DNA of 64,000 bases from Verrucomicrobium sp. BvORR106 (GTDB lineage: Bacteria; Verrucomicrobiota; Verrucomicrobiia; Verrucomicrobiales; Verrucomicrobiaceae), in the NCBI RefSeq assembly GCF_000739655.1, contig NZ_BATR01000181.1:124001-188000 (forward strand). Direction: 5' to 3'. Below, one piece after another: positions 11,171 through 63,245 of the stretch (its first letter is position 1; the number at the start of each line of letters is the position of its first letter). The notes under the pieces are model-generated. The model did not search any database. It saw only the letters and a program-made list of their open reading frames with translations, and was not told the origin of the DNA. Both the position numbers and the translations under genes were made by a program.

Positions 11171-12502
11171 CTAGTTCGCAAGAGCGGACAACCTGGACTT
11201 CAGCTCAAGAAATGACGGACGTGCGGCGACGTCTGGCAGGCAGCACACATCCCTCATTCGAATGAGCTCAGCGATGCCGTCATCTGCTTGCGGTGCGGAT
11301 TCGACCACGAACTCGACCAGCTCCTCCAGTAGGTATCCAAAGGCCCGGACTTCCACACGCTCCAGATCACGAGCCAGCGTCAAATTCCCACGATCATAAA
11401 ACGCGGCAGCACCAAAATCGCTCAGCAGACACCCACCGTCCGGCTTGTAGAGGATATTGTGAGCATAGAGATCCCCATGGAGAATGCCCTTCTCGTGGAG
11501 CTGCACCGCCGCGGAAGCAATACCGTGCACCAGATGCACAGCAGCCTCTGCAGACAGCCTCACCCCTTCCGAGTACACATCCCGGGTGCAGGTCTCGAAA
11601 CTGGGCGGTCCCGCGAGATTGGCGTAGGCCGGATCAATGAGACGCATCACGATGCCTTCCGCACCGTCAGGATGCCCGCCAATCCTGCCCAAAACCCGAG
11701 TGAGATGGGGATGCTCCCCCACTCCCAGACTGGCGGCCATTTCACTGGCAGGAAGCCCGTCGGAGGTCATCGCGCCCTTGAAGATCTTCACCGCCACCTC
11801 CTTGTCGGAATCAGCGGGAATTCCACGTTGCCACTCTGCCCGATGAATCACTCCAGAGGCCCCCTCCCCGAGTTGCTGATTCAATACCAGCTCCGACCAT
11901 GGGATAGTGGCAATGTCGCCCTCTCCTTCCAGGTCTGGATTTGCTTCCGTCATGGGGTTGCCGGCCAGGGCCAGCCAGGCCAGCCGTGGCAGGCGGAGCA
12001 ACCACTCTGGCAACGCGCCAAACCGGTTGGCGGCCAGTCGGAGCAGTTCGAGGTTTTCACAATTGGCCATCTCCGCCGGCAGGGTCGCCAGGGCGTTTCC
12101 AGAGAGCATCAGCTTTTGCAGCCGCTGGCATTTCCCCAGCGCAGTGGGCAGCTCCCGCAGCCGGTTTTCCGTGAGGATGAGCCACTGGAGATCCTGCGGT
12201 AGCGCCCCTTCTTCGATCTCCTCAATCTGGTTTGCGCGAAAGCCCACCATGGTCAGGCTGGGGCAGGTGCCCAGCACCGCTGGCAGCCGGGTGAACTGGT
12301 TGTTCGAGCAGAAGAGGATGCGCAGCTTCTTCAGGCGCCCCAAGTCATCCGGCAGGGAGGAAAGCCGGTTGCCCGTGAGGTTCAGTACTTCCAGCGTGTC
12401 TGCGTGATCGAACACCTCCCGCGGGAACTCGGTAAGTCCCGCGGCAAGATCAATGCGCGTCGTAGGTGGGGCAAGGGAACTGGCAGGGTCTCTTTCAGAC
12501 AT
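11171..12502 (-). CDS. Leucine-rich-repeat protein kinase
   Basis: The 443-residue protein has about six to seven LRRs (residues 30-190; units such as LEVLNLTGNRLSSLPDDLGRL) followed by a protein-kinase domain (about 205-440). Kinase features are a Gly-rich loop LGEGASGVIHRAEW, VAVKIF with the catalytic Lys, HGDLYAHNILY in the catalytic loop and DFGAAAF. The Arg of the usual HRD is Gly, so it is a non-RD kinase. It has no signal peptide or transmembrane helix, so it is cytoplasmic. LRR-kinases of this small form are scattered in bacteria with unknown targets. Confidence 0.87.
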   Translation of the reverse strand: MSERDPASSLAPPTTRIDLAAGLTEFPREVFDHADTLEVLNLTGNRLSSLPDDLGRLKKLRILFCSNNQFTRLPAVLGTCPSLTMVGFRANQIEEIEEGALPQDLQWLILTENRLRELPTALGKCQRLQKLMLSGNALATLPAEMANCENLELLRLAANRFGALPEWLLRLPRLAWLALAGNPMTEANPDLEGEGDIATIPWSELVLNQQLGEGASGVIHRAEWQRGIPADSDKEVAVKIFKGAMTSDGLPASEMAASLGVGEHPHLTRVLGRIGGHPDGAEGIVMRLIDPAYANLAGPPSFETCTRDVYSEGVRLSAEAAVHLVHGIASAAVQLHEKGILHGDLYAHNILYKPDGGCLLSDFGAAAFYDRGNLTLARDLERVEVRAFGYLLEELVEFVVESAPQADDGIAELIRMRDVCCLPDVAARPSFLELKSRLSALAN

Positions 12503-14339: not shown

Positions 14340-16016
14340 TCAAGGGGCATCTGCCGGTTTCACCTGCGCTCCAGACAAAGCATCATCCGGGGCCTTCGTC
14401 CCTGGCTTGGACGGTCGGACCGCCGCCACTTCCATGGAGAGCACGGGCAACCCCAAAGCTCGCGCATCACCAGCGACAACGTGCGGCAGGCAGGTCCAGG
14501 AAAGCTCCACGGTGCGCCCATCCTGCCCCTCCGCCCCGCTGAGGTTGATCGAAAGGGCCAACACTCCCTGTTTGCCTTTCACGCTCGACTGCGGGAGTGG
14601 CACTCCATCCACACAAAATTGAAGGTGCGCACTGAGGTCTGAGGCCCAGGCGCGCAGCCTGCCCATATCTATCCACACCTTGAAGGAAAGCCCCGCAGGA
14701 AATGTGAGTCGCACCCTTGCCTCGGGTCTGGACCAGCGCAGCAGACGATCCACATACGGCTCCAGTGGATAGAAGCCTTTCAAGTCAGCTTCCTCAAACC
14801 GGCCCACACTCCCGACCTCGCGACCCCGGAGCAGTCTCGGTATCCTGCGCACATACCAGGGGAGCCAGTTCCTGAACCAATAGGCAGCCTGCGCCCGATA
14901 GTGCGAGGTGAATTGACCTGGCAAAAGATTGTTGGCATGGCGGAAATAGACTGGAAATCCGCTCAACTGTCGCCATAGGCCGTGCCCACGAGCGCAACGA
15001 AGGTGATGACTAAAGTCCAGCGGCATCCTGTGCAGGGGGGATGGGAGACTCCTGCCCAGCAGGCGCGCTTCCCATCGCTCTTGAAAGGTAGGCCTCAACT
15101 CCCCCATGCGTCGGAACGCCTCAGCCGGAACCTCCACCTCCAGGTGCTTCTGCAAATAGTCCAGAGTGCCCTGCACTCCTTGAACCGCTCCGATCGCGGG
15201 AGCATGCTCCGCCACGCGCCGCCAGTCGATCTGCCTGCCCGCCTGCTGAACGAGGAAATAAGCATCGGCGATCCAGCGCACCGGTGACACCGACTTGTAC
15301 TGGGGCCCATGCGCGCAGGTGTGCAGGAACTGGTCCGTGGCACAAGGCACTCCGGCAGGTTCACCATGCAGTTCCAGAGACTGTCGCCCTTCCCACAAGG
15401 TGCGATCAAAATCCTTTCCTGCCGGCAGGTGGCAGAGGCGCCAGTGCAGATCGATCGCCGCGTTTGAGTCATCCTTGAACGAACAGGCATGGATGCTGGC
15501 GGGCAGATCGCGCGGAGAATGAACCTGCGAATGCCAACCCAACCCTTCCAGGACGTCCATCGCCTCCCCCACCCGGGAAAGAGGCACCAGCAGATCGAAG
15601 TCATCCATGGGGCGGACCCCGTGGTCCCGATAGACCGTAAGCGTCAATCCTGCTCCTTTAAGCAGCATGCAGGGGATCTCCCGTGCGGCCAAGGCCTTCA
15701 GCACTGCCGCTTTTCGGCCCAATACCATCTGGTTCTTTGTCCAAAAATTACGATAAATCCCCTTCAGCCTCGGCAGCAGAGGATCAGCCGCATCCACCCC
15801 CACCCTTACGAGATTGCGATAGAGCAGGCCCATGAGCCGGAAAGTGCCCGCCTCCAGATAGTCCAGGTCATTCACCGCCTTCCACTCTTCCCAGGCGGAT
15901 AGGGCTGGTCCCGCCTCCAGCAGAGCCGCCCGCAGCAGCAAGGTTTGCCCGGGCGTGGGCCAGCATCCTCCGGTCAGCAATACGGTGGTGGTAGCAGTTG
16001 GGACGGAGGTGGGCAT
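14340..16016 (-). CDS. Nucleotidyltransferase family protein (NTP_transf_5 type) of the kinase/PqqD locus
   Basis: The 558-residue protein carries the family core MLLKGAGLTLTVY and RPMDDFDLLVP (about 118-145), where the Asp residues (D138, D139, D141) would bind metal, followed by IDLHWRLCHLP. This family is a recurring partner of HPr-kinase-like proteins in lasso-peptide clusters, where one member (pseudomycoidin PsmN) acts on the phosphorylated C-terminus. The C-terminal 200 residues, with WFRNWLPWYVRRIPRLLRG, are an unassigned domain. The ATG at 16016 is chosen because an upstream extension to 16163 would overlap the divergent PqqD gene. The shared 145-bp intergenic region would co-regulate both. 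Confidence 0.82.
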   Translation of the reverse strand: MPTSVPTATTTVLLTGGCWPTPGQTLLLRAALLEAGPALSAWEEWKAVNDLDYLEAGTFRLMGLLYRNLVRVGVDAADPLLPRLKGIYRNFWTKNQMVLGRKAAVLKALAAREIPCMLLKGAGLTLTVYRDHGVRPMDDFDLLVPLSRVGEAMDVLEGLGWHSQVHSPRDLPASIHACSFKDDSNAAIDLHWRLCHLPAGKDFDRTLWEGRQSLELHGEPAGVPCATDQFLHTCAHGPQYKSVSPVRWIADAYFLVQQAGRQIDWRRVAEHAPAIGAVQGVQGTLDYLQKHLEVEVPAEAFRRMGELRPTFQERWEARLLGRSLPSPLHRMPLDFSHHLRCARGHGLWRQLSGFPVYFRHANNLLPGQFTSHYRAQAAYWFRNWLPWYVRRIPRLLRGREVGSVGRFEEADLKGFYPLEPYVDRLLRWSRPEARVRLTFPAGLSFKVWIDMGRLRAWASDLSAHLQFCVDGVPLPQSSVKGKQGVLALSINLSGAEGQDGRTVELSWTCLPHVVAGDARALGLPVLSMEVAAVRPSKPGTKAPDDALSGAQVKPADAP

Positions 16017-16161
16017 GAGACGGGGAGCGGCGCGGAGATTCCCGCACCGGGTTTTCGCTGCGAAAGCGAACCATGCAAACATTTCATCCCTAGACAAAAA
16101 TTTTGGCTGGAATTCTGCCTCTGCTGGTGAAGCCTGCCATTTCTCCTCCCGCTCAAACCAC

Positions 16162-16593
16162 ATGTCTGCCCGCTACCGCCTCAACGAACCCGATGTCAGT
16201 GCCGAAGTCTTCGACGAAGAGGTGTTGGCCATCAATCTGAAGACCGGGCACTATCACAGCCTGCGGGAGTCCGGCGTTTTCCTCTGGCAGACTTTGATGC
16301 AGGGCCACTCCCTTGAAGAGACGGCATCACTGCTGGCCGCTAGATTTCCAGACATCGCAGCACAATCCCGGATCGAGGCAGAAAATTTCGCCCAGCAACT
16401 GGTGGAAGCGGGACTCGTCGTGGAGGCCCCCGATGCGACAAGCCCCTCGGGTGCGGCTCCCGCCGAGCCAGTAGGCAAGCCCTACGTCAGTCCTTTGATC
16501 GAGAGCTACACGGACATGCAGGAGTTGCTCCTCATCGACCCGATCCATGAAGTGGACGTGTACACCGGCTGGCCCCAGAAGCCCGCATCCTGA
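16162..16593 (+). CDS. PqqD-like RiPP recognition element with lasso-leader-like C-terminal tail
   Basis: Of 143 residues, 1-88 form a PqqD winged-helix (VFDEEVLAINLKTGHYHSL, VFLWQTLMQGHSLEETASLLAARF). Residues 89-106 are a Pro/Ala linker, and 107-143 form a tail beginning PYVSPLIESYTDMQELLL. The Y108-x-x-P111-L/I pattern matches the leader motif that lasso B1 recognition domains bind, and the last residue is Ser143. PqqD-like domains deliver peptides to modifying enzymes. The gene heads a tight operon with the kinase (8-bp gap) and two glycosyltransferases. That the tail is itself a substrate is my inference. Confidence 0.8.
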   Translation: MSARYRLNEPDVSAEVFDEEVLAINLKTGHYHSLRESGVFLWQTLMQGHSLEETASLLAARFPDIAAQSRIEAENFAQQLVEAGLVVEAPDATSPSGAAPAEPVGKPYVSPLIESYTDMQELLLIDPIHEVDVYTGWPQKPAS

Positions 16594-16601
16594 ATCCGGG
16601 C

Positions 16602-17690
16602 ATGGCAGTGACTTCTTCCCCAGTCGGACCTTCGGAGATCCGCAGCCGTCTGGACACCTACTTTGATTCGCTCCTGGCTGCATACGAGGAGGCAACCAGG
16701 AGAGCCCCGTCACACACCCATACGGGAGCTCTGGCTGAACGACGTCTCGTCGTTCGCACGGTCGGCCAGACACTTCAGCAGGTGTTCACGCCATCGCTCA
16801 CCCACCTCCCGACCCTTTCCACCTACCTCTCCGGCGGACTGGAGGTGCTCGCGTGGGATGAGGCCGTCACCGGCGTTGCACTCCCCGCTCCGCCCTGGAC
16901 ACCCCCTCCGGCAGGCACCGCCACTTCCGCCCCCAGACTCACGTTGCCTGAAGGCGGTGAAGGCTACCGCATCAATCTGGCCGAGCAGGACAGCCTGTTC
17001 ATCCTCTACTCCATCGAACGAGGGCAGGCTGTGATCTGGGTGCGGAATGCCGCCCAGCTCCCCACCTACGTACATTCCGCCCCCTTCCCCACGCTGATGC
17101 ATTGGTGGTCTCAGCAGCAGGGGTTGAGGTTGCTGCATGCCGGATGTGTGGGCACCTCCTCAGGGGCTGCCTTGATCGTCGGAAAGAGCGGCTCGGGAAA
17201 GTCCACCACGTCACTGCACTGCGCCCTGAGCGGCTTCTCCTACCTGAGCGACGATCTGTGCCTGGTGCGAACGCAGCCGACTCCCCACGCCTACTGTGTC
17301 TTCAACAGTGGCAAGCTTTTGCCCGACAGTCTGGCACGGTTTCCAGACCTCGCCGCACGATCCCGGGACCCTCTGCCCGGCGTGGAAGGCAAGCCGGTCA
17401 TTTTCATGCACGAGCACTTTCCGGAAAGAGTCGCCGTCGACCTCCCTCTGAAAGTGCTGGTCGCCCCCCGCGTGGCGGGAACAGAGAGCACGAGGTTCAT
17501 GCCCATCCCGCCCGGAGAGGCGCTCAAGGCCCTGGCTCCCAGCACGCTGCTGCCGCGGGCCAACCCGGAACCCGCCTCCTTTCATGACATGGCCCGGCTC
17601 GTGCGATCCCTCCCGTGTTATCGCATCGAACTCGGCACCCGGCTCGATGAGGTCTCCGCAGTATTGCGCCACCTCATCGAAATTTCCTAA
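16602..17690 (+). CDS. HPr-kinase-like (HprK-related) serine kinase
   Basis: The 362-residue protein has a C-terminal HPr-kinase-like P-loop domain: LLHAGCVG, Walker A VGKSGSGKSTT (about 193-203) and FSYLSDDLCLV (SDD near 217). The N-terminal 150 residues are not recognised. Related kinases in lasso-peptide clusters (paeninodin PadeK type) phosphorylate the C-terminal Ser of the precursor, whereas true HprK phosphorylates HPr. No PTS genes are nearby. The context points to peptide tailoring together with the PqqD protein 8 bp upstream and the divergent nucleotidyltransferase. Confidence 0.85.
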   Translation: MAVTSSPVGPSEIRSRLDTYFDSLLAAYEEATRRAPSHTHTGALAERRLVVRTVGQTLQQVFTPSLTHLPTLSTYLSGGLEVLAWDEAVTGVALPAPPWTPPPAGTATSAPRLTLPEGGEGYRINLAEQDSLFILYSIERGQAVIWVRNAAQLPTYVHSAPFPTLMHWWSQQQGLRLLHAGCVGTSSGAALIVGKSGSGKSTTSLHCALSGFSYLSDDLCLVRTQPTPHAYCVFNSGKLLPDSLARFPDLAARSRDPLPGVEGKPVIFMHEHFPERVAVDLPLKVLVAPRVAGTESTRFMPIPPGEALKALAPSTLLPRANPEPASFHDMARLVRSLPCYRIELGTRLDEVSAVLRHLIEIS

Positions 17691-17695
17691 AACCC

Positions 17696-18787
17696 ATGCG
17701 CATCCTCCACTGGAACGACGGCTACTACCCGCGCATCGGTGGCACGGAGACGCTGGTCCGCGACCTGTGCCATGCGCAACAGGCTGCCGGATACCAGGTC
17801 ACCGTGGTGGGACGCGCCCTGCCCGGCTCTCCCGCGGAGGAAGTCATGGACGGCATCCAGGTCTGGCGACGCCCGGTGCTGGATGAGGATCTGATCCATC
17901 AACCGGGGCTGCTAACCCGGCAGATCAAGGCCTGTGCGGAGTACAAACAAAGATTCCGGCCCGAAATCATCCACATCCATGGCTGCCACATGGCGGGCTG
18001 GCTGCACCTGCTAAGCCGCAGTGCCGCCCCCTGCCCCGCCGTGCTCACACTGCACGCCCCCCTTCACCTTCCCGCCGCGCTGCAACGTCGCGTGCTGGAG
18101 GAGGTGGAGATCCTCGCCGCAGTGTCCGCCAGCATGCTGGCCTCGTTTTCGTCCCAGCTCGAAAATCGGAAAGGTCCCTCTCACGTCGTCCACAACGGTC
18201 TCGCGCTGCCTGAGCCTGCCCCCGCGCCCCCGAAGGAAGTCACTACGGTCTTGTGTCTGGGACGCATGGTCAATGAGAAGGGTTTCGACATCGCCCTGCG
18301 TGCACTCGCCCTGGTGCCGGGCGTCCGGTTGATCATGGCGGGCGATGGGATCGAGCTTCCTCATTTACAGCAACTGTCTGCCGACCTCGGATTGGATCAG
18401 CGGGTGGAGTTTCGGGGCTGGGTCCATCCGACCGCCGTGCCGGACCTCATCGCCAGCGCAGACGTGGTCCTCATGCCTTCGCGCTGGGAGGAGCCGTTTG
18501 GACTGGTCGCCCTGCAGGCAGCTCAGATGTCGCGCCCCATCATTGCCAGCCGCATCGGCGGACTGCCGGAGATCGTTCTGCACGACACCACGGGAATCCT
18601 GGTCCCACCAGAAGATCCTGCTGCCATGGCTGCGGCACTCCAGTCACTCCGCGACCACCCGGAAATTGTCACCCGCATGGGTGGCCAGGCCAGATCCCAT
18701 GCGGAGCAAGCATTCTCGATCGCGGCGTGCGCGGCGGCGTATGACAACCTCTACACCTCGGCATCTGCCGGCATCAGAGCCCCATGA
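17696..18787 (+). CDS. Glycosyltransferase family 4 (GT-B)
   Basis: The 363-residue protein has the GT-B two-domain layout: N-terminal ILHWNDGYYPRIGGTETLVRDL, C-terminal VLCLGRMVNEKGFDIALRAL and the nucleotide-sugar site MPSRWEEPFGLVALQAAQM with the EX7E motif. It is a retaining hexosyltransferase-like enzyme with unknown donor. It lies 5 bp after the kinase gene and overlaps the next glycosyltransferase by an ATGA, so the genes are translationally coupled. In this operon the acceptor may be the product of the PqqD/kinase/nucleotidyltransferase genes or a cell-surface glycan. Confidence 0.92.
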   Translation: MRILHWNDGYYPRIGGTETLVRDLCHAQQAAGYQVTVVGRALPGSPAEEVMDGIQVWRRPVLDEDLIHQPGLLTRQIKACAEYKQRFRPEIIHIHGCHMAGWLHLLSRSAAPCPAVLTLHAPLHLPAALQRRVLEEVEILAAVSASMLASFSSQLENRKGPSHVVHNGLALPEPAPAPPKEVTTVLCLGRMVNEKGFDIALRALALVPGVRLIMAGDGIELPHLQQLSADLGLDQRVEFRGWVHPTAVPDLIASADVVLMPSRWEEPFGLVALQAAQMSRPIIASRIGGLPEIVLHDTTGILVPPEDPAAMAAALQSLRDHPEIVTRMGGQARSHAEQAFSIAACAAAYDNLYTSASAGIRAP

Positions 18788-19893
18788 AAATTCTGGTCTG
18801 GCCCGAGTTGTTTCATCCGCACATCGGCGGGATCGAGGTTCGCAGCGGCGAGCTGGTGGCAGAACTCTGCCGGAGAGGACACGAGTGCACGGTCATCACC
18901 AGCCGCATTCCCGAGACGCTCCCTGCTGAAGACATGTGGCACAGCGCCCCGGTCCATCGGTTGCAGTTCAGACGAGCCATCGCAACGGGCAATCTGCGGG
19001 AGCTCCAGCAGGCTCTAGCCATCATCCGGGCGGTCAAGGCGTCCTTCCAGCCCGATGTTGAACTCGTCTTTGTCTCGGGGCCGCTGATCGCCCTGCAACG
19101 CATTGCCTGCCGGCAGTCCCCGTGCCCCACCATCGCGAGTCTGCAAGGGCGTATTGAAGAGTACACCACGCCAGGCGGGGCCGTTCGCCAGCATCTGCAT
19201 TCCTGCAATCTCATCGTCACCGTGTCCCACTTTCTGCATCAGGCAGTGTGCAGGAACATGCCCGAGCTAGCTCCGAAAACGATCCCACTCCTCAACAGTC
19301 TGCCTGTTTCAGGTATCCCCCTTTTGCCCTTGCCGCAGGAGCCTCCAGTCATCATGACGCTCGGCCGCCTGATCCCAGACAAAGGCTTTGACCTCGCCCT
19401 TCGGGCCATGCAGCAAGTGCGTGAGAAACATCCCGCCGCGCAGATGATCGTGGCAGGGGACGGGCCCGAACGCCAGCCGCTGGAGACGCTCGCTCATGAA
19501 CTGGGCTTGGAAAACTGCGTCCAGTTCCCGGGCTGGATTCCTCCCACTGAGGTCCCCAGCTTTCTCAACCGCGCGTCCGTGGTGGTGATGCCTTCACGGT
19601 GGGAGGAGGCGTTTGGACTGGTCAGCCTGCAGGCGGCGCAGATGGGACGCCCCGTGGTGGGGACGCGAGTTGGAGCCCTGCCGGAAATCGTGGTTCATGG
19701 AAAAACGGGACTCCTCGCGGACAACGAAGATGTGACGGGACTGGCAGAAGCGCTGGACCAACTCCTCAGCAACCCTGCTCTCATGCAAGAGATGGGAAAT
19801 CAAGCCAGAGCACGTGCCCTGACAGACTTCGGCTTCCAGCGCTATGTGACCCTGTACGAGGAACTGTTTGACCGGGCGGTTCGGCCCGCGTGA
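18784..19893 (+). CDS. Glycosyltransferase family 4 (GT-B), second copy
   Basis: The 369-residue protein is a paralogue of the preceding enzyme. Shared features are ILVWPELFHPHIGGIEVRSGEL, IMTLGRLIPDKGFDLALRAMQ and MPSRWEEAFGLVSLQAAQMGRP. The two copies share the MPSRWEE-FGLV-LQAAQM block almost word for word, suggesting tandem duplication and then divergence in the acceptor half. It starts inside the last codon of the upstream gene (ATGA). It ends 7 bp from the convergent GT2 gene, with no terminator between them. Confidence 0.92.
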   Translation: MKILVWPELFHPHIGGIEVRSGELVAELCRRGHECTVITSRIPETLPAEDMWHSAPVHRLQFRRAIATGNLRELQQALAIIRAVKASFQPDVELVFVSGPLIALQRIACRQSPCPTIASLQGRIEEYTTPGGAVRQHLHSCNLIVTVSHFLHQAVCRNMPELAPKTIPLLNSLPVSGIPLLPLPQEPPVIMTLGRLIPDKGFDLALRAMQQVREKHPAAQMIVAGDGPERQPLETLAHELGLENCVQFPGWIPPTEVPSFLNRASVVVMPSRWEEAFGLVSLQAAQMGRPVVGTRVGALPEIVVHGKTGLLADNEDVTGLAEALDQLLSNPALMQEMGNQARARALTDFGFQRYVTLYEELFDRAVRPA

Positions 19894-19900
19894 ACCCAGA

Positions 19901-20629
19901 TCACCCCGGCTCCACGCCTTGTCCCGTCACGGCCGCGGCGCCGGCAGCGCGTTTTCTCCTGAGGTGCTGCTGAATCATCTGCAGGTATCCCGGTGCCAGG
20001 GTGGGTTTGGTCAGCACTGAGTTCGAGCCATGCACCCTGCGCAACACCACCAGCTCCTCGGTGGTGGCAAAGTTCAACCCGGCATGCCGGGCGCGTGAGA
20101 TCCATTCCACGAACTCCGCATTCGGAAGGGTTTCATCAAACCCGCCCACTTGATCGAAGCAAGTCCGGCGGAACGCCACCGCCCCAGCCTGCCAGCCCTG
20201 CACCGCCTTCCCGGTCAGATCACCGGGATTCTGCCCGGCCCAGCCCATCGCCTCATGCGGCACATTCACCATCCGTGCACAGGCGCCATCCGCTTCCGGG
20301 CTGGAGGCCAGTGTATTCATCAGCGCCTGAAGCGCCCCTGGCAGCCAGACGTCATCACTATCGAGGAAACAAACCACCCCTTCCTTCACCATTCCCAACC
20401 CCGTATTCCTCGCCTTGGCCGTGCCCCCCCTGTCTTCATGGCGCACGTATCGAACCTTGCTGCTGTACGTCTCAACTACCTGCGGGGTATCATCGTCTGA
20501 AGCATCATCCACCACGATCACCGTCATCGCAGGCCAGTCCTGAGCAAAGACGCTGTCGAGAGCGTCCTTCAAGAATCTGCCATAGTTTCGGGTAGGGATG
20601 ATGACGGATACCGTTTGCGCAAGGGTCAT
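19901..20629 (-). CDS. Glycosyltransferase family 2 (GT-A)
   Basis: The 242-residue protein begins MTLAQTVSVIIPTRNYGRFLKDALDSV, the GT2 N-terminus, with VVDDASDDDT, VCFLDSDDVWLPGAL (DxD metal site) and WISRARHAGLNF. It transfers a sugar from an NDP donor, usually with inversion. The ATG at 20629 is chosen because the fold starts there. It is convergent with the GT4 pair and 66 bp downstream of the FGase-like gene. It may contribute to the same glycan or glycopeptide. Confidence 0.9.
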   Translation of the reverse strand: MTLAQTVSVIIPTRNYGRFLKDALDSVFAQDWPAMTVIVVDDASDDDTPQVVETYSSKVRYVRHEDRGGTAKARNTGLGMVKEGVVCFLDSDDVWLPGALQALMNTLASSPEADGACARMVNVPHEAMGWAGQNPGDLTGKAVQGWQAGAVAFRRTCFDQVGGFDETLPNAEFVEWISRARHAGLNFATTEELVVLRRVHGSNSVLTKPTLAPGYLQMIQQHLRRKRAAGAAAVTGQGVEPG

Positions 20630-20695
20630 GAGGAGGAAATAAGATCGCCACGAGAGGTGGGAAACACCCATCGGCCCTCGGGGACTAGGAATCAA

Positions 20696-22926: not shown

Positions 22927-24315
22927 CTAGACCATGCCATGAGCGGCCATCCTTGCAAACAGGGCGAGGGTAAGCGCATCCTGAATCACATGGCTGGCGA
23001 CCATCTGGCGCAATTCTGCCCCGGTCACAAGCCGCACTTCGCCAATGTGCTCCCCTCCGACAGGCTGGGGAGTCCGGACGATTCGCACTGGATGAGCGGC
23101 AAACAAATAAACGTGCTCATTGGTAAATCCTTGCGAGCCAAAAAACCAGCCCAAAGGAGTCAGCGTGCCTTCTGGGGCCACCACGCACCCCGCCTCCTCG
23201 TCCAGCTCCCGGTGCACCGTCTCCAGGATGGCCTCGTGAGTTTCCCCGTCATCCAGCTGTCCGGCAGGGAATTCCCAGAGGGTCCGCTGCACGGGCAGAC
23301 GCTCCTGGTGAATGAGGATGAATTTTCCGTCATCCGTGATCGGAGCCACCGCAATCGCCGATTTCCGGTGCGCCACCGTCCAGTGCACCGGCGTCTCCGG
23401 CCGGGCAGGCGTGAGGTAGGCACACTCCTCGATCTGGACGTACTTGCCCGGGTACACCATCTCCCCCGGGAGCTTCTTCCAGTCGTCGTGGTCTCTGATC
23501 TCGCACAGGGGGAAGGGTGGTACGACAGGTTTGCAACCTGTCTGCTGGACAGGATTGCATCCTGTTCCCTCCGCGCCGCCACCGGCACCTGCCCCTTGGA
23601 CCACGCTTCCGTCGCTCTCTGTTTTCATCACGTTTCGAAGTTCCACACTGTATTCTGCCACCGGCAAACCGGCCTTCCGCGGATTCTTCAGGATGTAATC
23701 GCGATATTTCTCAAGTTCCACTGCATCACGCACAATCCGATCGTGACTTTCCTCCATCCATAGAGCACCGGAACGGCCCAGAATCTTGTGAATCTCCCGG
23801 GCTGAGTGCCGTTTCCAGCCGCCGACCATGTCGGACAGCTCAATTCCGGGCAACGGCTTCACCAACACGTGGACGTGGTTGGGCATGACCACATAGCTAT
23901 CCAAGAGATAGCGTTCTCCATGAAAGTGGAGGAGGGAATCCACCACCACCTTTCGAAGTTGGGATTGCGCCAGCAAACACTCGCCGAATCCCCGGTCAAA
24001 CCACTCCTCTCTCCCATCCACGAACCTGGCTTGATATTCCGCAATCGTCTTTCCCTTCCACGGCTCAGGGTACAGACGGAGCCAAACTTCCAGTTCTTCA
24101 CGCAATTGGGCCAGGATGTGGGCTGGAAGCGAATCCCCGAGACGAAACGTCACAAAGTACGTCGCGCCCTCCTGCCGCCAGTGGGGCAGATGGCGCTGTT
24201 TGACCGTGATGGCTTTGTCCCAATCTAGAGGGACAAAGATGTCCACAGCGGCAGCTGAGGCAGGATAAAATCCTGCCCCACCGACAGGTTGAAAACCTGT
24301 CCTACCCGCACTCAC
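22927..24315 (-). CDS. RAYT (Y1-type REP-associated tyrosine transposase) fused in frame to a NUDIX hydrolase
   Basis: One uninterrupted 462-codon frame contains two unrelated modules. Residues about 35-235 are a RAYT/Y1 transposase with HUH motif MPNHVHVLVKP, GWKRHSAREIH, WMEESHDRIV and catalytic Tyr in YRDYILKNPRKAG. Residues about 275-462 are a NUDIX hydrolase (IEECAYLTPARPETPVHWT, GKFILIHQER, EFPAGQLDDGETHEAILETVHRELDEEAG). Inverted REP pairs lie at both ends of the RAYT part and are translated as TGFQPV and GCNPV. The GTG start overlaps the argH stop (GTGA). A standalone NUDIX could start at the internal ATG before TESDGSVV. Confidence 0.78.
   Translation of the reverse strand: MSAGRTGFQPVGGAGFYPASAAAVDIFVPLDWDKAITVKQRHLPHWRQEGATYFVTFRLGDSLPAHILAQLREELEVWLRLYPEPWKGKTIAEYQARFVDGREEWFDRGFGECLLAQSQLRKVVVDSLLHFHGERYLLDSYVVMPNHVHVLVKPLPGIELSDMVGGWKRHSAREIHKILGRSGALWMEESHDRIVRDAVELEKYRDYILKNPRKAGLPVAEYSVELRNVMKTESDGSVVQGAGAGGGAEGTGCNPVQQTGCKPVVPPFPLCEIRDHDDWKKLPGEMVYPGKYVQIEECAYLTPARPETPVHWTVAHRKSAIAVAPITDDGKFILIHQERLPVQRTLWEFPAGQLDDGETHEAILETVHRELDEEAGCVVAPEGTLTPLGWFFGSQGFTNEHVYLFAAHPVRIVRTPQPVGGEHIGEVRLVTGAELRQMVASHVIQDALTLALFARMAAHGMV
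23524..23567. repeat. REP pair, order A-B (inner end of the RAYT module)
   Basis: Palindrome A (GACAGGTT-TGC-AACCTGTC, 23524-23542) and palindrome B (ACAGGAT-TGC-ATCCTGT, 23549-23565) are separated by 6 bp. It is coded through in the fusion as GCNPVQQTGCKPV. It is in inverse orientation to the pair at 24259-24301 and the same orientation as 50678-50719. Confidence 0.85.
24259..24301. repeat. REP pair, order B-A (outer end of the RAYT module)
   Basis: Palindrome B (GGCAGGAT-AAA-ATCCTGCC, 24259-24277) and palindrome A (GACAGGTT-GAA-AACCTGTC, 24283-24301) are separated by 5 bp. It is coded through as TGFQPVGGAGFYPAS at the N-terminus of the RAYT-NUDIX fusion. It ends 11 bp from the argH stop codon. 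With the pair at 23524 it brackets the transposase domain. Confidence 0.85.
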
Positions 24316-58385: not shown

Positions 58386-58853
58386 CTACCTCCCCCGCCC
58401 CACTGGCACAAACCGCAGCTTGGTCGCCAGGACCTCATCATGCTCGGACTCCGCCCACGGCCCTTTTGATGCTTCGCGGACATAACCGAACACCTGCCAG
58501 AAAGACGGACCTTCATCCGCCGCGGCTTGAGCCCCCAACCGGGTCGCTCCAGCCGCGATGCGATACGGAGCGGCGTACATGAACTTCACATCCAGCACAA
58601 AATCCCGGTCCACACGAAAGACCTCGGTTCCCGTCAGGACGGAGTCACTCTCCGGCCCCCGAGGTGGCGAGAGATGCTTCAAGCCCGGGAACGACTTCTT
58701 GAGATGCGCACGCAGGGCGGGATCGGGTAGCGCTGCCAGTCTGTTCCGGTAGGCGGCCTCCCGTTGTTTGACGTCGCCAGACGCTGCCGACCCGGCACAG
58801 CTGGCGAGCAACACCGGCAACAACCACACCATGCAAAGCCATGCGGACCTCAT
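58386..58853 (-). CDS. Small secreted lipoprotein of unknown function
   Basis: The 155-residue precursor has a lipobox LLASC near residue 19 (AWLCMVWLLPVLLASCAGS). The mature part contains ALPDPALRAHLKKSFPGLKHLSPPRG and VDRDFVLDVKFMYAAPYRIAAGATRLGAQ. No family is recognised. The ATG at 58853 starts the lipoprotein signal. It is divergent from the SUMF1 gene; the 114-bp gap holds both promoters. Confidence 0.65.
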   Translation of the reverse strand: MRSAWLCMVWLLPVLLASCAGSAASGDVKQREAAYRNRLAALPDPALRAHLKKSFPGLKHLSPPRGPESDSVLTGTEVFRVDRDFVLDVKFMYAAPYRIAAGATRLGAQAAADEGPSFWQVFGYVREASKGPWAESEHDEVLATKLRFVPVGRGR

Positions 58854-58967
58854 AGGAAGGCATCTCAACAGATGGCCCCCGGATTGGCAAGAAGTTGCCA
58901 GATGAAGTTTTTCTGCGGCCCTATTTTATCACTTTTCAGTTTGGCGAGTTCGACTAGCATCCCGCGC

Positions 58968-60545
58968 ATGCGACTCCGCCTCTTGACTGCGAGCCTCCTG
59001 CTGCTTGGCACCGCATTGCGTGCCGCCGACCCCGCCCCTGCGCTGAGCCTTGAGCTTGGCAATGGTGTGACGCTCCCCGTGGTGCTCATTCCCAAGGGCA
59101 CCTTCATGCAGGGCTCCCCCACAGACGAGGCAGACCGGGGGAACGATGAAATGCAGCGCTTCGTGAATCTCACGAGCGACTTCTATCTTGGCAAGACTGC
59201 CGTGACCGTGGAGCAGTTTGAACGGTTCGTGCAGGAGACCGGCTACCGCACCGAGGCCGAGAGCGGCCCCAGCGGCGGCTTCGGCTGGGCGGGAGACACC
59301 CTCGTGCAGAAGAAGGAATTCACCTGGAGGAACCCCGGCTTCACCCAAGCTCCAGATCACCCTGTCACAATCGTCACCTATCCGGATGCGGAAGCCTTCT
59401 GCCAGTGGCTTTCGAAAAAGGTAAAGCGCAAGGTCACGCTGCCGACCGAGGCGCAATGGGAATACGCCTGCCGCGCCGGGACCACCACCGCCTGGCACAA
59501 CCTCGGCGACGAAGCCGCGAGCAACAGCATCGCCTGGCACAAGAAGAACGCTGGCAACCAGACCCATCCCGCCACCAGCAGCTCCGTGAACCCCTGGGGT
59601 CTTCACATCGGTGGCAACGTGGCCGAGTGGTGTCTGGACTGGTACGGTCCCTATGAATCCGGCCCGCTGACGGACCCGGTGCAGACCAACCAGAACCTCT
59701 CGGACAAACCCCGCCGCGTCCTGCGCGGTGGCGCATGGTCCCGCGATCCCAAGAACACCCGGAGCGCCGCCCGCTACCGCGCGGATGCCCGCAGCCGCAA
59801 TGCAGACATCGGATTCCGCGTGCTCTGCTCCGTGGCGGAGGTCATCCCACCACCGGCTCCCAAACCCACAACGAACACCTCCTCCACCGGCGGCCTCCTA
59901 CCCCGGATGGAAGGTGGATCTGAACCCTCAGTAGGCCGGCCTACCGTACCAGTTTCCACCACTCAGCCCGCTCCGTCGCCCACTTCCAGCGATGCCCAAG
60001 CCCATGGCACAACGCCCACCGAGACCAAGGGTGGCCCCATCGACTTTCTGGTCGGCCTCATGTGTCTCTTCTGCCCCGTTATTGTGGTCGGCCTCGTGAT
60101 CTGGCTGGTGGTGCGCGCAGTCAAAAGCAAGAACCAGAGCGCCACGCCTTCTGCATCGTCGTCACGCGGTGGCCAGAGTGCCGGCGCGGCTCTGGCCGAC
60201 GCCCTGCAGCAGCCCTCGGGCTCCGGTTCAGGCCGCGCCCCCCGCATCCGCCTCGTCGAGGACGGCTTCTGGATCCTCGTTGACATCGCTCGCGGCAGCA
60301 CCGTTCGCTATGTCTACCGTCCCCACGGCGGCATGGACGTAAGCGGTCAGGTTCAGTATCAGCCAGGCCCAGAGGGTCAGTATATTTACACGGGAGCGAA
60401 ACCCGAGAACGTGCGCGTGACCGAAGCAGGTGGCCAGCCCTTGGACGACGCCTTCGTGTACGACTCCGACAATCGCGACACACAGCGGGGCAATGCCTTT
60501 GACCAGGACGACGACCGTCCTCCCACCTATCCCTCGGCGTACTAA
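58968..60545 (+). CDS. Formylglycine-generating-enzyme-like (SUMF1) protein with membrane segment and extra C-terminal domain
   Basis: The 525-residue protein has a signal peptide (MRLRLLTASLLLLGTALRAAD) and a SUMF1/EgtB-type domain (about 30-285): PKGTFMQGSPTDEADRGNDEMQRFVNLTSDFYLGKTAVT, PTEAQWEYACRAGTTTAW, NPWGLHIGGNVAEWCLDWYG, RVLRGGAWSRDPKN, GFRVLC. It then has a Pro/Ser linker, one membrane helix (about 355-378) and a C-terminal region (IRLVEDGFWILVDIARGSTVRYVYRPHGG). FGE oxidises Cys to formylglycine in sulfatases; related domains serve other roles. The copper-site Cys pair of bacterial FGE is not obvious, so FGE activity is doubtful. Confidence 0.82.
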   Translation: MRLRLLTASLLLLGTALRAADPAPALSLELGNGVTLPVVLIPKGTFMQGSPTDEADRGNDEMQRFVNLTSDFYLGKTAVTVEQFERFVQETGYRTEAESGPSGGFGWAGDTLVQKKEFTWRNPGFTQAPDHPVTIVTYPDAEAFCQWLSKKVKRKVTLPTEAQWEYACRAGTTTAWHNLGDEAASNSIAWHKKNAGNQTHPATSSSVNPWGLHIGGNVAEWCLDWYGPYESGPLTDPVQTNQNLSDKPRRVLRGGAWSRDPKNTRSAARYRADARSRNADIGFRVLCSVAEVIPPPAPKPTTNTSSTGGLLPRMEGGSEPSVGRPTVPVSTTQPAPSPTSSDAQAHGTTPTETKGGPIDFLVGLMCLFCPVIVVGLVIWLVVRAVKSKNQSATPSASSSRGGQSAGAALADALQQPSGSGSGRAPRIRLVEDGFWILVDIARGSTVRYVYRPHGGMDVSGQVQYQPGPEGQYIYTGAKPENVRVTEAGGQPLDDAFVYDSDNRDTQRGNAFDQDDDRPPTYPSAY

Positions 60546-60578
60546 CCCCGTCCTTCAGGTCGTCGCTTCACCCCTCTC

Positions 60579-63245
60579 GTGGAAGCACTCGTCTTCGACG
60601 CGGATCCCCGTCTTCCGCACCTTGCCGCCCGCAGTGCCCGCAGCCTGCGAGCGGCTGGGTTTGAGAAAATCACCATCCGTCATGCGGGGAGCAGCCCACC
60701 AGGTCTCACCACACCAGGTGCGGTGCTCCTGCTCCGCGCCGGCGCGTGGTTGCGCCACCCCGCCCACTTTCAAACCCCGCCGTTTCATCCCGCCAGCCAC
60801 CCCGTGATGGCGGTGGGGCACGTCGCGGGCACTGGCCCGGCGGAACCCTGGTCGCGGTTCTTTGAAACACACGGGGGAGACTTCTCCACGGCAGAGACAC
60901 TTCCTCCCTGTGTGTGCGAGTGGTTCGATGAATCAGCCGTTGCCATTGGACTGGCCGAGGCCCGGCTCACCGCGAGCCCGCTGCCAGTGGCCGCCGCGCT
61001 CAAGCCCCCCCGCATCTTCCACTGGTCTCCGTTGGATGCCGGGTTTGCCCCGGGGCTGCGCTGTCTCCAGATCGTCACCAGCCTCCAGCACGGCGGCGCA
61101 GAGCGCATCGCCTGGGATCTGGCCCAAGAGCTTCCACGAACTGGAGTCGCCACGCGGCTGATCTCTCTCGGCAAACCCCTGCGTCGCACCCTGCCGGAAC
61201 TCCCCGGCACCCTCGACCTGAGCCAATATGATCGCTCCACCCGTGCGGAGCGCCTCCGCATCGCCGCGCATCACTTCGGGGCCGATGTCCTGCATGGTCA
61301 CCTCATTGATCAGGAGGACATGCAGCTCTTCAGCGCCTCTGGCATCCCTCTGGCTACGACCATCCACAACACCCAGGCCGCCTGGCCACAGGGTCTGGAA
61401 TCCCTCCGTGCCGAGGACGCCGGTCTGCTCATCGCCTGCGCCCAGACGGTGGAGAGCGAACTGGCGGAGCTGAAGCTGCCCGTACCCCTGCGCACGGTTT
61501 GGAACGGCATCTCCATGACGGAGTATGCGGGCAATCAAACGCCCGACCCTGCCAGGGATGAGTTTGTGCTCGCCTGTGTGGCCAACCCCCGCCCGCAAAA
61601 GCGCCTTCACCTCCTCCCGGCGATTCTCTCCGCCACTCAGCAGGCCTTTGATCGCTGCGGCATGAAGCGCCAAGTCCGCCTCATCCTGGCGGGCGAAGCC
61701 TCTCCACGCAGTCCCAGTGCGCTGGAGTGTTATGAGCAGATTCGTCAGGAAGCCGCCCGTCACGGCGTCACTTCAGCCATCACCTGGACACACGGGGCCA
61801 TCGATACCAAGAGCGTGCTGGCCCAGGCCGATGCCGCCATTTCCTGCAGCGCCTATGAGGGACTGAGCCTCGCTCATATGGAAGCTCTGGCCATGGGGCT
61901 GCCGCTGATCTCCACCGATGCAGGCGGCACCCGGGAGCTCGCTCCTGGCAATCCAGCCCTGACGCTCCTACCTTTGGAGGCCTCCCCCACCGATTTCGCC
62001 GAAGCCATCGTTGCCCTCATTCAAACGCCCCCGGCTTCCGGAGTCGAAGCGGTGGCCCGGGATTTTTCCACCCCCCACATGGCCCGGCGGGTGGGCTGGC
62101 TGCTCCAGAGTCTAGCCACCCAGGCCGCCTCGCCCGCAGGCGAGGGCATCCTCTTTGTCACCAACAACCTCTCCACCGGCGGCGCTCAATCCTCCCTGCG
62201 TCGTCTGGCTCTGTCGCTACAGGCACAAGGCATCCCCGTCACGCTTGCCCTCCTCCAGGAGTATCCTGAGCATCCCACCCCGGGCCGCACCGCCCTGGAG
62301 CAGGCGGGTATTCCCTTCATCGTGCCGCCCCCTGCGGGCACCGTTGATCCCGCCATCGCAGTACGGCAGATCCTGGACCACATGGCCCCCACCCCGTCGG
62401 CCACCATCGTGTTCTGGAATGCCATCCCGGTTCACAAGATCCTCCTGGCCGATGCCGTCTGGTCCGCCCGCATCTTTGATGTGAGCCCGGGTGAGATGTA
62501 CTTCGCCTCCCTGGATCGCTATTTCCTCAATCCCCGCCCCGCCTTGCCCGTTCGTACCGCCCGGGATTATGGTCAGCGGCTCAGTGGAGTCATCGTCAAA
62601 TACCACGACGAGGCTGAGCGGGCAAAGGAGCTCCTGGGAGCGCCCACCTATGTGGTGCCGAATGGAGTCCTCCTGCCCGAGCCCTTGCCACTCCGTCCTC
62701 CAGCCCCTGCGCCATTCGTATTCGGCACGGCTGCACGTCTCAGCCCGCAGAAACGGCTCGGCGACCTGCTGGAAGCCTTCCGCATCGCCTTGCCCGAGTT
62801 GCCCAAATGTGAACTCCACATCGCGGGTGGCCCTGAGCACGATGGCGCGGAGCATGTGGCAGAACTGCACCGGCTCGCAGAAGGCCTACCCGTCATCTGG
62901 TGCGGAGAGCTGACCGACCTTCGGCCGTTCCACGCCAGTCTGGATGCCTTTGTCATGATCTCGGAACCCGCCGGATGCCCCAATGCCTCCTTGGAGGCCC
63001 TGGCCGCCGGGCTGCCCGTGGTGGCCACGGATTTCGGCGGAGCCCGGGAGCAGGTGATTCATGAGCAGACCGGCCTCCTGGTCCCGCCACGTGACGCGAC
63101 AGCTCTGGCCGCGGCCATGGTCCGGATGGCCGCTGACTCAGATCTCCGGGCCCGCTGCGCAGCGGGGGCACGGGCGCATATCGAGGCCGGATTCACCTTG
63201 GAGCGGATGCTGTTCGCCTATCGACGCGTGTTGCTGGAAGATTGA
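60579..63245 (+). CDS. Tandem two-domain glycosyltransferase (GT4 x2)
   Basis: The 888-residue protein starts at GTG 60579. After an N-terminal region (1-160, partly GT2-like: MEALVFDADPRLPHLAARSARSL), a first GT-B glycosyltransferase runs about 165-510 (LRCLQIVTSLQHGGAERIAWDL; sugar-binding SCSAYEGLSLAHMEALAMG). A second runs about 525-888 (ILFVTNNLSTGGAQSSLRRLAL; AFVMISEPAGCPNASLEALAAGLPVVATDFGG). Two catalytic units in one chain suggest a polymerising or two-step enzyme. It is 34 bp after the SUMF1-like gene on the same strand. Confidence 0.87.
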   Translation: MEALVFDADPRLPHLAARSARSLRAAGFEKITIRHAGSSPPGLTTPGAVLLLRAGAWLRHPAHFQTPPFHPASHPVMAVGHVAGTGPAEPWSRFFETHGGDFSTAETLPPCVCEWFDESAVAIGLAEARLTASPLPVAAALKPPRIFHWSPLDAGFAPGLRCLQIVTSLQHGGAERIAWDLAQELPRTGVATRLISLGKPLRRTLPELPGTLDLSQYDRSTRAERLRIAAHHFGADVLHGHLIDQEDMQLFSASGIPLATTIHNTQAAWPQGLESLRAEDAGLLIACAQTVESELAELKLPVPLRTVWNGISMTEYAGNQTPDPARDEFVLACVANPRPQKRLHLLPAILSATQQAFDRCGMKRQVRLILAGEASPRSPSALECYEQIRQEAARHGVTSAITWTHGAIDTKSVLAQADAAISCSAYEGLSLAHMEALAMGLPLISTDAGGTRELAPGNPALTLLPLEASPTDFAEAIVALIQTPPASGVEAVARDFSTPHMARRVGWLLQSLATQAASPAGEGILFVTNNLSTGGAQSSLRRLALSLQAQGIPVTLALLQEYPEHPTPGRTALEQAGIPFIVPPPAGTVDPAIAVRQILDHMAPTPSATIVFWNAIPVHKILLADAVWSARIFDVSPGEMYFASLDRYFLNPRPALPVRTARDYGQRLSGVIVKYHDEAERAKELLGAPTYVVPNGVLLPEPLPLRPPAPAPFVFGTAARLSPQKRLGDLLEAFRIALPELPKCELHIAGGPEHDGAEHVAELHRLAEGLPVIWCGELTDLRPFHASLDAFVMISEPAGCPNASLEALAAGLPVVATDFGGAREQVIHEQTGLLVPPRDATALAAAMVRMAADSDLRARCAAGARAHIEAGFTLERMLFAYRRVLLED

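Follow-up and report, generated by a model that had tools for sequence, protein, structure and literature searches.

What do the tailoring enzymes of a lasso peptide cluster modify when the macrolactam cyclase is missing? This question is raised by a locus in Verrucomicrobium sp. BvORR106 (contig NZ_BATR01000181.1, positions 124,001 to 188,000; this whole stretch of 64,000 nucleotides [nt] is called the window here). It holds genes for a PqqD-like recognition element (RRE), an HprK-like kinase, an NTP_transf_5 nucleotidyltransferase, and two GT4 glycosyltransferases. An earlier note on this DNA had named these genes, had remarked that no cyclase, leader peptidase, or separate precursor was in view, and had suggested that lasso tailoring enzymes are reused here to decorate a linear peptide or a protein C terminus. 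Family matches confirmed the gene assignments, that of the kinase by profile, residues, and fold. The RRE protein itself offers a natural candidate for the C terminus, since it ends in a tail that is leader-like and conserved across phyla. The reading that we favor, with a probability of about 0.5, is cyclase-less, RRE-guided peptide modification in which the RRE is fused to its own peptide substrate.

The RRE protein resembles the RREs of lasso peptide pathways. By sequence profile, its nearest solved structure was the lasso RRE TbiB1 (E value of 2.2e-18), and a fold search returned the lasso RREs 5v1v, 5v1u, and 6jx3, which were crystallized with leader peptides, at ranks 1 to 6. The NCBIfam lasso PqqD model matched 77 of 81 RRE proteins at an E value of 0.001; the window protein scored 20.7 bits against a cutoff of 80. 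After a linker, the window protein continues into a tail of 37 residues, PYVSPLIESYTDMQELLLIDPIHEVDVYTGWPQKPAS. AlphaFold2 (AF2), run with an 81-sequence alignment, gave a mean predicted local distance difference test score (pLDDT) of 86 for the whole protein, with block values of 81 for residues 101 to 110, 89 for 111 to 120, and 60 for 121 to 130, followed by 53 and 58. The first half of the tail shows the spacing of a lasso leader (YxxPxL), is predicted to be ordered and to contain a strand, and in the model resembles a leader attached in cis; the second half is a conserved, core-like segment predicted to be disordered. DSSP assigns a strand only when it is paired, and no sheet other than that of the RRE is available, so we infer that the tail strand at residues 113 to 116 lies on the RRE.

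Codon differences identify the tail as real protein. Between the window and a relative designated L026 (record G217), the tail differs by 7 synonymous codons and 1 nonsynonymous codon, compared with 20 and 16, respectively, in the RRE; this excess of synonymous changes (7 versus 1) rules out a translation artifact. The likeness to a lasso leader can be followed within a single genome, that of Oscillatoria PCC 10802, where the tail of the RRE (locus L042) reads FEPPKLDKYTDMEDLLL-LDPIHEVDETGWP and the likely lasso precursor (locus L126) reads YKKPTLTPYGSIQNITQ-GISGSNTDGM. Aligned, the two have an aromatic residue, Pro, Leu, and Tyr in common, as well as hydrophobic residues further along. The tail has Leu at the place of the lasso leader Thr(-2); lasso leaders have Thr at the penultimate place, according to the accessible part of one report (PMC10368454). 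The L126 region has B2, two cyclases of the lasso type, an RRE without a tail, and HprK-like frames in addition to lasso-like precursors, and its lasso-type genes lie ~10 kb or more upstream of the tailed-RRE locus. Three tails (L055, L089, and L094) contain a second WP unit, as though the core were repeated, and two Chloroploca genomes (G292 and G293; L167 and L170) encode a second tailed RRE (LLLMDPIHDVSDEGWPRRA) 11 to 15 kb from the first.

Tailed RREs were found well beyond the phylum of the window. A protein search made without the tail pattern covered 288 genomes of the phylum, the window's own included. Fifteen of the 288 matched, and the match was nearly full length in six (again including the window's own), all of which carried LLLxDPIH. 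The locus is patchy: one genome of the same genus has it, with an RRE protein that is 84% identical, and it was absent from the five genomes of the same family among the results of this search. No tail is present on nine other PqqD proteins from the phylum or on two further ones in G206, all of which end shortly past the domain. We also scanned 84,980 species genomes for the nonamer [EDQ]LLL[AIL]DPIH, combined with homology to the RRE protein. This yielded 272 stretches, 244 of which encode relatives of the RRE protein; the best 80 of the 244 (L026 to L105) are the relatives counted below. Since the nonamer was used for selection, its nine positions are conserved by construction in the 80. Outside it, the first place is F, Y, or W in 77 relatives, and P (79), D (80), M (77), and GWP (74) are similarly constant. 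The mean top-residue frequency was 0.46 in the RRE, 0.21 in the linker, 0.67 in residues 130 to 138, and 0.26 in the last five residues; residues 130 to 138 are more conserved than the RRE domain. A phylum is recorded for 75 of the 80, and these fall into 20 named phyla, with Chloroflexota (22) and Acidobacteriota (9) in the lead; because many relatives are metagenome bins, single odd phyla need care. The arrangement is not confined to Verrucomicrobiota. A scan of IMG/VR with the RRE protein found no relative.

Partner genes were counted in those 33 of the 80 loci that have 8 kb or more of flanking sequence on each side, near-full-length matches being required, and in 20 regularly spaced 20-kb control stretches from two genomes of the phylum. 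The kinase was present in 31 of the 33 relatives, NTP_transf_5 in 28, GT2 or GT4 in 31, and a full ABC exporter in 16. In the 20 controls, the corresponding counts were 0 for the kinase, 0 for NTP_transf_5, 4 for GT2, 2 for GT4, and 0 for the exporter. On these counts, the association of the tailed RRE with the kinase and NTP_transf_5 is above chance. The ABC profile picks up simple ABC ATPases as well (as in L022); the near-full-length requirement moved the exporter count from 17 to 16 of 33 and left the counts of kinase, NTP_transf_5, and glycosyltransferases unchanged. When the shorter loci are counted as well, the kinase was detected in 66 and NTP_transf_5 in 53 of the 80; among the tailed loci of the phylum search (L019 to L023), both were present in 5 of 5 and a glycosyltransferase was present in 4 of 5. 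A family of large proteins is encoded near eight tailed-RRE loci (L038, L049, L055, L060, L063, L085, L095, and L104), and its L104 member combines adenylation and carrier-protein domains with a lipid A acyltransferase-like domain.

We then consider the genes that would process a lasso peptide or a linear polyphosphorylated peptide (LPP). Profiles for B2, C, and signal peptidase were built from 10, 7, and 8 sequences, respectively, of genomes holding tailed loci, and counts were made over the 80 loci, many of which have short flanks (33 have 8 kb on both sides). The lasso macrolactam cyclase C was found at 0 of 80 loci and not in the window. The leader peptidase B2 was likewise not found in the window and turned up at one of the 80 loci, L042, where it lies on the edge. 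An archaeal-type signal peptidase was found at none of the loci and not in the window, with a profile of eight archaeal-type sequences that did not include LppS itself. The counts of B2 and C, which the earlier note had proposed as a check, bear out its view that lasso tailoring enzymes are reused without a cyclase or B2. A lasso cluster just outside the window was rejected: the profiles and a search of the genome gave only one PF13471 match, on another contig and below threshold (24.5 versus 26 bits). Within L019 to L025, the sole B2 is in L025 (G206), whose RRE has no tail. That locus combines an untailed PqqD, a B2-like peptidase, HprK, NTP_transf_5, and two GT2 genes with no lasso cyclase found in 14 kb, and the genome with this cyclase-less layout also has a tailed locus.

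Searches for a separate precursor agreed with the remark that none is in view, the leader-like segment being the RRE tail. Among small intergenic frames (25 to 130 amino acids [aa], within 5 kb, at the 80 loci), the best-connected ones listed included antisense matches and near-copies and no precursor-like family; across the small frames, the YxxP motif occurred at the shuffled rate (72 versus 72 of 1,084). A profile of the tail found nothing better than an E value of 2.9 among the small frames at the 80 loci. Run against all frames at an E value of 1, its worst 25 matches listed were all RRE frames; in the window, its sole good match was the RRE frame, the next best having an E value of 1.5. 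No free intergenic frame of 25 to 130 aa was left in the window after called frames were masked, and an overlapping precursor could be missed in this way. No free-standing tails were found in 301 genomes, where 5 of 5 pattern matches were fused to an RRE and came from three nearly related genomes.

The kinase of the window falls below curated cutoffs (PF07475, 14.8 versus 33.3 bits; TIGR04352, 38.3 versus 200 bits); PF07475 matched 30 of 45 kinase sequences at an E value of 0.01. Its best sequence match in the Protein Data Bank (PDB) was HprK 1jb1 (E value of 1.4e-7). An AF2 model with a pLDDT of 91 aligned with the ATP-dependent PEPCK 1xkv (Z score of 16.6, root mean square deviation [rmsd] of 5.0, 302 residues aligned) and with HprK 1ko7 (Z score of 14.9, rmsd of 2.3, 131 aligned), and residues H179, K200, S201, D217, and K264 were invariant in the 45 sequences. 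By its predicted fold and catalytic residues, the kinase belongs to the HprK/PEPCK superfamily. Of the 80 loci, 49 have the kinase less than 500 nt 3′ of the tailed RRE and on its strand, and in 8 a single open frame encodes both the kinase and a GT2 domain. For the NTP_transf_5 protein, a PDB profile search gave no match; K120, G121, R135, D139, and D141 (numbered from position 16016) were invariant in 27 sequences.

Table 1. Genes and protein segments of the tailed-RRE locus, in window coordinates
Feature	Position	Strand	Evidence
NTP_transf_5 nucleotidyltransferase	14340-16016	minus	PF14907 E 1.7e-40, 139.6 bits vs gathering cutoff 31.2
PqqD-like RRE protein, 143 aa, tailed at the C terminus	16162-16593	plus	PF05402 E 9.4e-12
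RRE domain, residues 1-88	16162-16425	plus	AF2 block pLDDT 93-98; strands, then three helices
Variable linker, residues 89-106	16426-16479	plus	Mean top-residue frequency 0.21 (81 sequences)
Leader-like segment PYVSPLIESYTDMQELLL, YxxPxI motif, residues 107-124	16480-16533	plus	AF2 strand 113-116, helix 119-124
Core-like segment IDPIHEVDVYTGWPQKPAS, residues 125-143	16534-16590	plus	Conserved, predicted disordered (AF2)
HprK/PEPCK-superfamily kinase, 362 aa	16602-17690	plus	Profile, catalytic residues, predicted fold
GT4 glycosyltransferase 1	17696-18787	plus	PF13692 E 4.4e-35
GT4 glycosyltransferase 2	18784-19893	plus	PF00534 E 1.5e-44
GT2 glycosyltransferase, convergent on the far side of the operon	19901-20695	minus	PF00535 E 3.3e-30

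Because the gap between RRE and kinase is 8 nt, that between kinase and GT4 is 5 nt, and the two GT4 genes overlap by 4 nt, these four genes probably form one operon (Table 1). The NTP_transf_5 gene is divergent from it; its open frame extends to 16163, and its start is probably near 16016. The convergent GT2 gene is likely part of the system: it is retained next to the operon in the same-genus relative L019 and 3′ of both GT4 genes in L027. The G+C content is 61 to 64% across the locus (2-kb steps), similar to that of the remaining window. PqqD has a single match in the genome at an E value of 0.001, and NTP_transf_5 has one over-threshold copy, that of the locus, and one weak match elsewhere. 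Three further places in the window are of separate interest. One open frame (22927 to 24315, minus strand) joins Y1/IS200-like transposase and NUDIX hydrolase domains, through fusion or an overlong start; another (11171 to 12502, minus strand) fuses a protein kinase domain to leucine-rich repeats; and at 58764 to 63245 (plus strand) a sulfatase-modifying-factor (FGE)-like protein adjoins a protein of 888 aa in which two separate stretches match GT4 domains.

The closest known system is that of the LPPs of Bacillota (LppA/B/K/S/D/N), for which cyclase-less use of the trio of RRE, kinase, and NTP transferase has already been published, as the accessible part of the report states (PMC13381572). 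The two have in common a discrete RRE, an HprK-like kinase, an NTP transferase, a YxxPx leader motif, the lack of a macrolactam cyclase, and glycosyltransferases nearby. To the MsbA-like transporter of LPP loci corresponds an ABC exporter in about half of our relatives and none in the window. The same part of that report describes a separate precursor with an N-terminal leader and a variable C terminus, an SpI-like peptidase, and a restriction to Bacillota. Here, in contrast, the leader-core segment is built into the RRE protein as its C-terminal tail, conservation extends to the core although to no Ser, no SpI-like peptidase or separate precursor was found, and many phyla are represented. The window locus would work like an LPP locus, yet we do not count it as a member of that group, because it is without an SpI-type peptidase and an exporter and a separate precursor was not found. 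In pseudomycoidin, the kinase and nucleotidyltransferase act on one peptide, according to the accessible text of a review (PMC8498205); as far as that text goes, paeninodin and pseudomycoidin share with our locus the RRE, the kinase, the nucleotidyltransferase, and a [Y/W]xxP leader spacing and differ from it in B2, the lasso cyclase, and the separate precursor, none of which was found here. The HPr-rel-A system (TIGR04352/TIGR04353) likewise pairs an HprK-related kinase with a PqqD-like protein; the window kinase stays below the TIGR04352 cutoff by the scores given above, and TIGR04353 matches 5 of 81 RREs at an E value of 0.001. In borosins, a substrate-like C-terminal segment is carried by the methyltransferase; here it is carried by the RRE adapter. 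We did not find the arrangement in the literature searched, which left out most subscription papers, and the accessible parts of two RRE surveys (PMC12710340 and PMC7470986) mention no such tail. Tailed RREs with phospho- and glyco-tailoring genes are real, widely scattered, and undescribed in the searchable literature.

In the reading that we favor, residues 107 to 124 would mimic a lasso or LPP leader and fold back on the RRE, presumably into its groove. The leader mimic would thereby present the second half of the tail (approximately DPIHEVDxxxGWP) to the kinase, NTP_transf_5, and the glycosyltransferases, which may build a phospho-sugar decoration on the core; the substrate, the order of steps, and the sugar are all putative. 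About half of the relatives, though not the window, have an ABC exporter through which the product may subsequently be moved. The ordered leader mimic, the disordered core, and the kinase fold of this scheme are predictions of the structural models.

Several observations weigh against this reading. The core is fixed, which also fits a docking motif, and cores of ribosomally synthesized and posttranslationally modified peptides (RiPPs) are usually variable, as are the C termini of LPPs in the accessible part of that report (PMC13381572). The putative contact between tail and RRE groove is drawn from DSSP and pLDDT, and the tail helix at residues 119 to 124 extends into the block with a pLDDT of 60. 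In the six nearly full-length matches of the phylum search, the rest of the tail is looser, GWP being present in three and the leader Pro in five. Tailed loci are also uncommon (3 of 301 genomes sampled from Chloroploca's phylum), and an RRE tree (111 columns) needs two changes for the tail, which is compatible with one origin as well as with more than one. Partners are also incomplete: in the 33-locus set, the kinase was undetected in L034 and L060 and NTP_transf_5 in L035, L060, L063, L071, and L093, while a full exporter was absent from 17 of 33 relatives and no ABC (MsbA-like) exporter was found in the 64-kb window. Neither leader-peptidase type searched for (B2 and archaeal signal peptidase) occurs at tailed loci apart from the B2 at the edge of L042, other protease types being outside the search.

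The acceptor is a further difficulty. No Ser or Thr is conserved in the tails of the 80 relatives, 14 of 80 core segments have neither residue, and the whole tail is without Ser/Thr in L075 (record G186), L098, and L105, where the kinase lies 12, 19, and 20 nt downstream. Paeninodin-type kinases act on Ser (PMC8498205), as does LppK, the LPP acceptor being Ser3 (PMC13381572), each in the accessible part of the source. The proposal that a protein C terminus is the target gained a natural candidate in this tail, which differs from paeninodin and LPP substrates in having no conserved Ser/Thr. If the tail is the substrate, the acceptor is likelier to be one of the invariant residues (His129 or Asp126, for instance) than a Ser/Thr; otherwise the substrate would be a different molecule.

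These objections lead to a credible competing explanation, against which we would nevertheless bet: the tail stays unmodified and, as a fixed short linear motif, serves to recruit or gate the kinase and glycosyltransferases or to block the RRE groove before a substrate arrives in trans. What is actually modified would then be a glycan, a lipid carrier, or a peptide from another locus. Such a docking role would suit a core more conserved than a typical RiPP core, the lack of a conserved hydroxyl despite the adjacent kinase, the nearby glycosyltransferases with a full ABC exporter in 16 of 33, and the failure to find either leader-peptidase type tested. It leaves unexplained why a segment copying a leader precedes the core; the small-frame test (25 to 130 aa, within 5 kb only) revealed no peptide in trans near the loci; and those relatives of the kinase and nucleotidyltransferase with known substrates act on peptides.

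This last point also bears on a simpler sugar-nucleotide pathway, in which the kinase would make a sugar phosphate, NTP_transf_5 would convert it to a nucleoside diphosphate sugar for the glycosyltransferases, and the RRE would be a regulator or a vestige. A kinase, a nucleotidyltransferase, and a glycosyltransferase together have the layout of a salvage route, and kinase and GT2 share an open frame in 8 of 80 loci. We regard this as improbable, given the membership of the kinase in the HprK/PEPCK superfamily, the presence, in 49 of 80 loci, of a tailed RRE on its strand and less than 500 nt upstream, and the peptide substrates of the relatives of both enzymes. Hardly any weight falls on a decayed or split lasso cluster that has lost B2 and C. 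The RRE and the leader spacing are indeed lasso-like, and lasso genes lie ~10 kb from the L042 locus; against this stand the counts of C (0 of 80) and B2 (1 of 80) beside the loci, the constraint on the tail, and the Leu in place of Thr(-2). Four of the same genomes also contain lasso-type clusters (L126, L127, L129, and L130), each with an untailed RRE of its own.

Many pathways to peptide natural products share the RRE as their adapter, and they are usually detected via a nearby separate precursor. If RRE-guided modification of a fused tail is the right reading, an adapter that carries leader and core in cis, spread thinly over ~20 phyla, could evade precursor-finding tools. The kinase beside Ser/Thr-free tails hints at chemistry unlike that of phospho-lasso and LPP peptides. 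The conserved core suggests a single product or function common to distant bacteria. A more specific idea, which we offer tentatively and think unlikely to hold in full, is that self-presenting RREs across phyla have DPIH(D/E)VDxxGWP phosphorylated on His or Asp by the PEPCK-like kinase and capped with sugar. The result would be a conserved phospho-glycopeptide carrier or cofactor-like molecule and not a variable antibiotic, with a logic that may be comparable to that of pyrroloquinoline quinone or mycofactocin.

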